Assembly (NCBI RefSeq): GCF_022814725.1
Contig: NZ_CP093442.1
Location: 2,728,001-2,792,000 of the forward strand
Direction: 5' to 3'
DNA length: 64,000 nt
Origin: Bdellovibrio reynosensis
GTDB taxonomy: Bacteria > Bdellovibrionota > Bdellovibrionia > Bdellovibrionales > Bdellovibrionaceae
The number at the start of each line of letters is the position of its first letter. Position 1 is the first letter of the stretch. Shown here piece after piece: positions 23,726 to 24,262 of this stretch. Both the position numbers and the translations under genes were made by a program. Below the pieces are notes generated by a model. That model was not told the DNA's origin. It made no database searches and saw only the letters and a list, made by a program, of their open reading frames with translations.

Positions 23726-23857
23726 CAAAAAAGTGGCCGAGCACCCCATATCACATAGTCCCTCGAGTGCCGTTGCTTCCTTCCGGACCTAGCGGATTCG
23801 TCAAGGGCGCTATTGTATGGGACCCGGCCATGGGCAGGTTTACCTGACTCGGGGGCT
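23726..23857 (-). ncRNA. ffs: Signal recognition particle RNA (4.5S/scRNA)
   Basis: The minus strand carries the near-invariant Ffh-binding segment AGGTCCGGAAGGAAGCA, flanked by pairing arms: CCG/CGG and CCCTTGA/TCGAGGG next to it, then ATAG/CTAT, CCCATA/TATGGG and CCGAG/CTCGG further out. A small TCAGG-TAAA-CCTG stem lies near the 5' end. A T run (complement of 23726-23732) ends the transcript. The RNA is about 120 nt; the 5' end is approximate. SRP RNA next to dnaX-ybaB-recR is the arrangement known in Bacillus (scr), which supports the call. Confidence 0.93.
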
Positions 23858-23881
23858 TGTTTCATTCGATAACTCTCTGTG

Positions 23882-24021
23882 CCATCGAGGGAATCTTTGG
23901 AGGTAAATTCCTGCTGATCGGCACGGCCTTCCAGGCCTCGTCGCTTCCCCTTCGGGGAGGGCCATCCAGGCCCCGCGAAGGCCGACCAACAGGAATTTAC
24001 CTCCAAAGATTCCCTCGATGG
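23882..24021. repeat. ~140-nt near-perfect palindrome upstream of the SRP RNA gene
   Basis: The 32-bp outer arms are perfect: 23882-23913 (starting CCATCGAGGGAATC) matches the complement of 23990-24021. The inner part also folds: TCGGC...CCTTC with GAAGGCCGA, and a tip TCCCC-TTC-GGGGA. Almost the whole 140 nt can form one rod. It ends about 25 bp upstream of the SRP RNA 5' end. No target-site duplication or coding frame of its own is evident; because of symmetry, both strands read IEGIFGGKFLL. It may be a mobile MITE-like element or an RNA. Confidence 0.85.
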
Positions 24022-24078
24022 AACCGAGGTCCTCGTAGGAAAGTTCCGTCAGATAGAACTGCTTCCATCTGAGCAGGG

Positions 24079-24175
24079 TTTCTGGCTGGTGCGCTTGGCG
24101 CACTTCGCGGTTTGCTCGTGCGCTATGCGCCCTCGAGGGTAGGCTGGTGCCTTTGGCACTTCGCAGTACCGGAAG
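24079..24175. repeat. Pair of related short-loop hairpins (GGCTGGTGC type)
   Basis: Two copies of GGCTG-GTGC..GCAC-TTCGC occur about 65 bp apart: GTGCGC-TTG-GCGCAC (from about 24085) and GTGCC-TTT-GGCAC (from about 24149). Flanks match while arm lengths differ and stay complementary. GCGC-TAT-GCGC and the palindrome CCCTCGAGGG lie between them. The class resembles the hairpins at 7111-7247. Nothing else is seen between 24022 and 24262. Confidence 0.65.
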
Positions 24176-24262
24176 GTGCCTGCTTCTTTTTTGGGTCTAC
24201 AGCGCGTTACTGATGGGAGTGCTTTATTTTGCGATGATAGGATTTTTTCTAAAGGAGATCTT

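Follow-up and report, generated by a model that had tools for sequence, protein, structure and literature searches.

A palindromic repeat of Bdellovibrio with a conserved folded centre and locus-specific, complementary arms

The palindrome at the SRP RNA locus

The window analyzed here is a 64,000-nucleotide stretch of the Bdellovibrio reynosensis genome (contig NZ_CP093442.1, positions 2,728,001 to 2,792,000). It carries the gene for the signal recognition particle (SRP) RNA on its minus strand, and a long palindrome lies upstream of this gene (Table 1). As the preliminary description had stated, the palindrome at 23882-24021 is nearly perfect, with arms of 32 bp that pair without a mismatch. 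If mismatches are allowed, 48 nt pair on each side (23875-23922 with 23981-24028, 92%). RNA folding yields a minimum free energy of -104.8 kcal/mol, against -56.1 +/- 4.4 for dinucleotide shuffles (z = -11), which places the palindrome far beyond chance. Two details of that description have to be corrected. The interior does not continue as a single rod down to a TTC tip, but forms a 68-nt branched core made of three hairpins and two three-way junctions, a structure supported by covariation. The spacing to the SRP RNA, given as about 25 bp, is in fact 52 bp, since the RNA runs from 23829 to 23732 on the minus strand.

Table 1. Features of the palindrome and its surroundings (window coordinates)
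Feature	Position	Strand	Basis
Entire palindromic element with its imperfectly paired outer arm extension	23875..24028	.	Inverted repeat I1, 48-nt arms, 92% complementary
Left arm, perfect 32 bp	23882..23913	.	Inverted-repeat match and folding
Right arm, perfect 32 bp	23990..24021	.	Inverted-repeat match and folding
Conserved core shared by the dispersed copies (models R1, R2)	23918..23985	- (SRP-sense)	R1 94.8 bits, R2 88.1 bits
Core hairpin a, GGGCC-UGGAU-GGCCC	23959..23973	-	Helix 3 of the core structure; loop GGA in most copies
Core hairpin b	23946..23958	-	Helix 4 of the core structure; stem length-variable, compensated
Core hairpin c	23925..23937	-	Helix 5 of the core structure; GGA-bearing loop
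SRP RNA (neighbor, outside the element)	23732..23829	-	RF00169, 52.9 bits
Conserved SRP promoter-like block (GAGTTATCGAATG ... GGTAAA), lying clear of the perfect palindrome	~23838..23877	-	Alignment of 30 SRP loci

Sequencing error, the origin that would have removed the palindrome altogether, is excluded because the same design recurs across many independent assemblies. At the SRP loci of two other genomes (G005 and G008; L014 and L016), gaps of Ns interrupt the assembly precisely at the tip of the hairpin, as expected for a palindrome that is difficult to sequence. The interval from the palindrome to the next gene holds three tandem 29-nt units (24084-24170), each of them a small hairpin. 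Their stems are varied and mostly compensated (GTGCGC..GCGCAC, GTGCGC..GCGCCC and GGTGCC..GGCACT), and the units were not seen anywhere else in the genome.

A dispersed family

A plain DNA similarity search of the window's own genome gave only one copy of the element, because every locus has arms of its own and the cores have diverged. Two covariance models were built on the core, both leaving out the arms: R1, from 13 core sequences (alignment A3) and their three-hairpin structure, and R2, which is broader. With R2, at least 17 copies are found in the window's own genome, and at least about 350 across 23 of the 24 Bdellovibrio genomes; these counts are lower bounds, since the initial scoring covered a limited number of candidates. 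R1 matches are spread over the whole of Bdellovibrio and extend to further genera and families of its order, and all those with E <= 1e-4 are inside the order (369 genomes of the phylum searched). The search for further copies that had been proposed thus finds them at unrelated loci in the same genome and in congeners, and the idea of a local accident is not borne out. Elements are about 125-200 bp long, with a core of ~68 nt and arms mostly of 24-46 bp. In the window's own genome the arms measure 32-44 bp and contain 0-4 mismatches.

At the gathering score, Rfam returned no family for the window or for five further copy-bearing loci, and a relaxed threshold gave only chance-level matches. The element has no match in a plasmid collection, and the exact core pattern has none in GTDB contigs, a set from which close relatives may be missing. 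Neither Rfam 15 nor the open literature searched yielded a description of the repeat. As far as these searches show, it is an undescribed one, having a conserved folded center and long arms that change quickly yet stay complementary.

The copy beside the SRP gene

A DNA search of the family places the palindrome upstream of the SRP gene in many congeners, with different arms whose complementarity is retained, and also detects the interior at other loci. The promoter-like block consists of GAGTTATCGAATG followed ~18 nt on by a GATACA-like hexamer. Located in the interval separating palindrome and SRP gene, it is kept also in relatives without the palindrome, as an alignment of 30 SRP loci shows. 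Four loci have an intact SRP gene and no palindrome (L020, L024, L026 and L027). Beside the intact SRP genes of G011 and G021 (L015 and L019) there are truncated remnants, consisting of the left arm plus some of the core, or of a portion of the left arm alone. From these comparisons, the SRP-side copy is one that part of the genus has inherited and that is decaying or absent elsewhere. The suggestion that the promoter might be located inside the palindrome is thus unsupported, and the copy is probably incidental to SRP expression. That the palindrome is part of the SRP promoter, or an accident of this locus, would fit its position adjoining the gene and the comparatively conserved outer arm there. 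It is nevertheless extremely improbable, given the family members elsewhere in the genome, the promoter-like block outside the palindrome, and the relatives in which the palindrome is absent or truncated.

Core covariation and the folding strand

The 13 core sequences provide 268 pair cells, 99.6% of them canonical. Two-sided changes number 35 and one-sided ones zero, and every slid control of the structure is at most half paired. Covariation across homologs, a check that had been proposed, is therefore strong. Most copies carry GGA in two of the hairpin loops. Despite the 35 two-sided changes, there is no G.U among the 268 core pair cells.

The arms indicate which strand folds. Mismatches were counted in 119 non-redundant arm pairs, away from the junction with the core. 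On the SRP-sense (R1) strand, G.A, G.U and G.G together occur 189 times, versus 25 for their mirror images C.T, A.C and C.C. The bias holds class by class (G.A 107 vs C.T 8; G.U 69 vs A.C 15; G.G 13 vs C.C 2). A process acting symmetrically on DNA would produce the two sets equally often, so it is the folding of the R1 strand that matters. The order of mismatch stability in DNA resembles the excess of G.A over G.U, and a functional RNA stem does not show this pattern. We infer that the excess of G.A in the arms and the lack of G.U in the core suit single-stranded DNA better than RNA.

Private arms that change in concert

Inverted arms enclose 154 of the 157 core-model matches, and they are long, locus-specific and nearly perfect. 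Their median length is 35 bp (range 15-71, first 137 matches). When the right flank was swapped between copies, a score of 14 was reached in only 3 of 400 cases, while the real median is 27.5. Because the arms are absent from both models and yet found at almost every match, they confirm the family independently. Arms of different copies are mostly unrelated to one another, and fall into 119 non-redundant groups at 65% identity.

Comparing orthologous copies shows how the arms change. Between L141 and L158, all five differing sites are altered in both arms. A one-base indel is present in both arms when L159 is compared with L085, as is a two-base indel between L144 and L163. Orthologous copies whose arms are similar gave 26 comparisons, in which both arms differ together in 118 cases and one arm alone in 68; some of the one-sided cases are conserved mismatches or alignment noise. 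Matched changes in close orthologs, indels included, would be expected of palindromes corrected by template switching, and they are seen here. In the three species represented by L142, L150 and L165, some mismatches are common to all while adjacent pairs change in concert. Since mismatches are conserved across species, selection on structure must act too, and copying alone is insufficient.

The arms could also be imagined as inverted copies of target DNA made on insertion, but this is unsupported, as arms within the same genome share end motifs (G038, G115 and G014). In most G115 copies, one foot carries GTGCC(T/A/C)G and the opposite foot TTAA. At L128 of this genome, the foot motifs are exchanged relative to the core when compared with L087-L094, as if the core had been inverted between the arms.

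Gain and placement of copies

Two copies in G014, at L046 and L047, lie 25-38 nt past genes conserved in the genus, and their orthologous sites are empty in 21 and 12 other genomes, respectively. As both are absent from the same site in all congeners examined, these copies have been gained. Empty orthologous sites often carry an ordinary terminator, which is usual for the L046 site in relatives. Such polymorphism of presence and absence at orthologous sites is what characterizes a mobile element, and on these sequence comparisons mobility is indicated. The first proposal of a mobile or structural element is therefore supported, by copies at unrelated loci, by lineage-specific gains, and by structural covariation.

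Copies are mostly intergenic and just downstream of genes, with 41 of the 109 resolved sites between convergent genes. The stop codon of an opposite-strand gene is within 45 nt of the 3' foot of R1 in 47 of 72 cases, compared to 11 of 64 for the other foot; the median distance of the close stop codon is 27 nt. Inverted pairs of copies occur. The possibility that these pairs enclose a common gene was rejected: one pair encloses trpS, and the others only non-coding DNA that is unrelated from pair to pair. No gene is consistently inside or adjoining the copies, and neither a target-site duplication nor a fixed foot sequence was found.

Comparison with known systems and rival explanations

Among the known systems nearest to the element are REPs, REPINs and BIMEs with their RAYT transposases, which are likewise dispersed extragenic palindromes with compensated stems, occasional inverted pairs and presumed non-autonomous mobility. 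It is unlikely that the element is itself a REP-like repeat moved by resident Y1 (RAYT/TnpA-REP) transposases. Y1_Tnp genes are present in 11 of the 12 genomes tested, and the extragenic placement after genes and the inverted pairs do resemble REPs and BIMEs. However, REP/RAYT families are tagged by GTAG or CGTC (PMC3733652; PMC3116915), and here GTAG is found at 2 and 2 of 150 feet and GGAG at 10 and 8, which is background level. There is no Y1_Tnp match in G004, which has 19 copies, and no consistent link with RAYTs: the one in the window's own genome is flanked by a different repeat, GGTGCCTGCTTCTTTTTTGGGTCTAC, and no copy was seen beside the RAYTs examined. REPs are palindromes of 20-40 bp with a conserved stem, whereas the present element is ~125-200 bp long, with a conserved 68-nt tip and a sequence-free, locus-specific stem mostly of 24-46 bp. 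A second dispersed repeat, GGTGCCTGCTTCTTTTTTGGGTCTACAG, is found in the window at 24172-24200 and has many copies in this genome and related ones. Three of its copies surround a Y1 (RAYT) transposase gene (G000:1958715-1958951, L177), so GGTGCCTGCTTCTTTTTTGGGTCTACAG looks like the REP belonging to this RAYT.

Integron attC sites (PMC2727003) are comparable in that structure is kept and arm sequence is not, the folded hairpin is strand-selective, and the sites are placed after genes. Their arrangement is the reverse of that seen here: in attC the feet are conserved, carrying R boxes, and the tip varies, whereas the element has variable feet and a conserved tip, and its copies are dispersed, unlike the cassette arrays of integrons. 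The R boxes GTTRRRY / RYYYAAC occur at 1-4 of 150 feet, versus 2-6 of 300 in the background. Hairpins maintained by template switching, or quasipalindrome correction (PMC8794818), share the two-sided changes without intermediates and the matched multi-base changes, but here the effect involves 30-46 bp arms and spans a whole dispersed repeat family.

Foldback elements and MITEs are also short and non-coding with long inverted repeats, and their termini are common to copies, unlike the arms of the element, which are private to each locus. In sum, the element would resemble REP or attC as a hairpin recognized by its structure, yet by the features tested it is a member of neither.

Alternatively, the element could be a dispersed structured RNA, either an sRNA or a 3'-UTR element, transcribed from the core strand and folded as a long stem, with GGA-loop hairpins, binding for example a CsrA-type regulator, and with arms kept paired by compensatory selection on the RNA. 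The two GGA loops in most copies agree with this, as does the part of the strand bias that favors G.U over A.C (69 vs 15), and one HD100 copy is within a mapped sRNA. That copy (L214, HD100 1338700-1339600) is inside APsRNA6 (1338787-1339441, plus strand), a published attack-phase sRNA of B. bacteriovorus HD100 (PMC3627812). There, though, the core is antisense, on the other strand, and the remaining seven AP sRNAs of HD100 overlap no copy (sRNA coordinates from PMC3627812). In the same genome (G003), a c-di-GMP-I riboswitch is exactly inside the published merRNA coordinates (PMC3627812). The pairing data also speak against an RNA, since G.U is missing from the 268 core cells in spite of 35 two-sided changes and is less common than G.A in the arms, and the nearest gene is transcribed on the strand opposite to the one that folds. 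We thus consider an RNA rather unlikely. That the hairpins are intrinsic terminators or stabilizers of mRNA ends, selected for a perfect stem, is distinctly unlikely. The sites between convergent genes, the short distance to the close stop codon, and the ordinary terminator that usually holds the empty L046 site in relatives would all suit such a role. But a G+C-rich hairpin followed by a T-run is rarely seen, with T-runs after 19 of 150 hairpins read on one strand and after none on the opposite strand, and no intrinsic terminator is listed at the SRP-side palindrome either. In addition, the mRNA of the close gene would carry the destabilizing C.U and A.C mismatches, and a 3' role needs no conserved branched core.

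A model for spread and arm matching

Our best explanation, which as a whole has about an even chance of being right, is that the SRP-side palindrome is one copy of a dispersed, non-coding and non-autonomous mobile element of Bdellovibrio and its relatives, that this element acts as a folded single strand, and that its arms are matched by template switching and/or selection. The element would act and spread with its core in the SRP-sense orientation, more likely as single-stranded DNA than as RNA. A putative structure-specific protein would recognize the folded strand through the core loops and the junction. The arms would serve only as a clamp, so that their sequence could drift freely. A change in one arm would be copied to the other via replication template switching at the hairpin, a process that makes and keeps hairpins (PMC8794818). 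Changes without a partner would be purged by selection unless they left G.A, G.T or G.G on the folding strand. Counting against this explanation, no mobilizing enzyme was found, and G004 combines 19 copies with no PF01797 transposase.

The loss of SbcCD may be a permissive condition. This nuclease restricts long palindromes, as established in E. coli (PMC3315005). Its palindrome nuclease subunit, SbcD, stayed below the cut-off in all genomes of the genus and its family, and within the order it was found only in family f7; of 14 control genomes, the model detected SbcD in 13. The f7 copies examined in G088 (L103 and L104) have 21-bp arms, shorter than elsewhere, in what is a tiny sample. G024 has neither detectable SbcD nor copies, so a missing SbcD is insufficient: it would permit the elements but not cause them. 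The persistence of such palindromes may be due to the lack of detectable SbcCD in these bacteria. It is possible, if doubtful, that the element represents a new mobile class recognized as folded single-stranded DNA by way of its conserved tip, with a sequence-free clamp of 24-46 bp matched by template switching in hosts that have no detectable SbcCD, and with its own putative enzyme, following an attC-like logic turned inside out.

Implications

Long palindromes are normally unstable and seldom kept. Hundreds of copies with private, matched arms form a natural archive of palindrome arm evolution, through two-sided changes and matched indels, and the mismatch spectrum reports which strand folds. 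This makes it possible to test template switching against compensatory selection directly, using the natural variation in SbcCD status within the order. Such hairpins may also underlie intergenic gaps in the genome assemblies of these predators. The element points to a putative structure-specific protein, and the family offers a natural system for understanding how long palindromes spread and stay paired.
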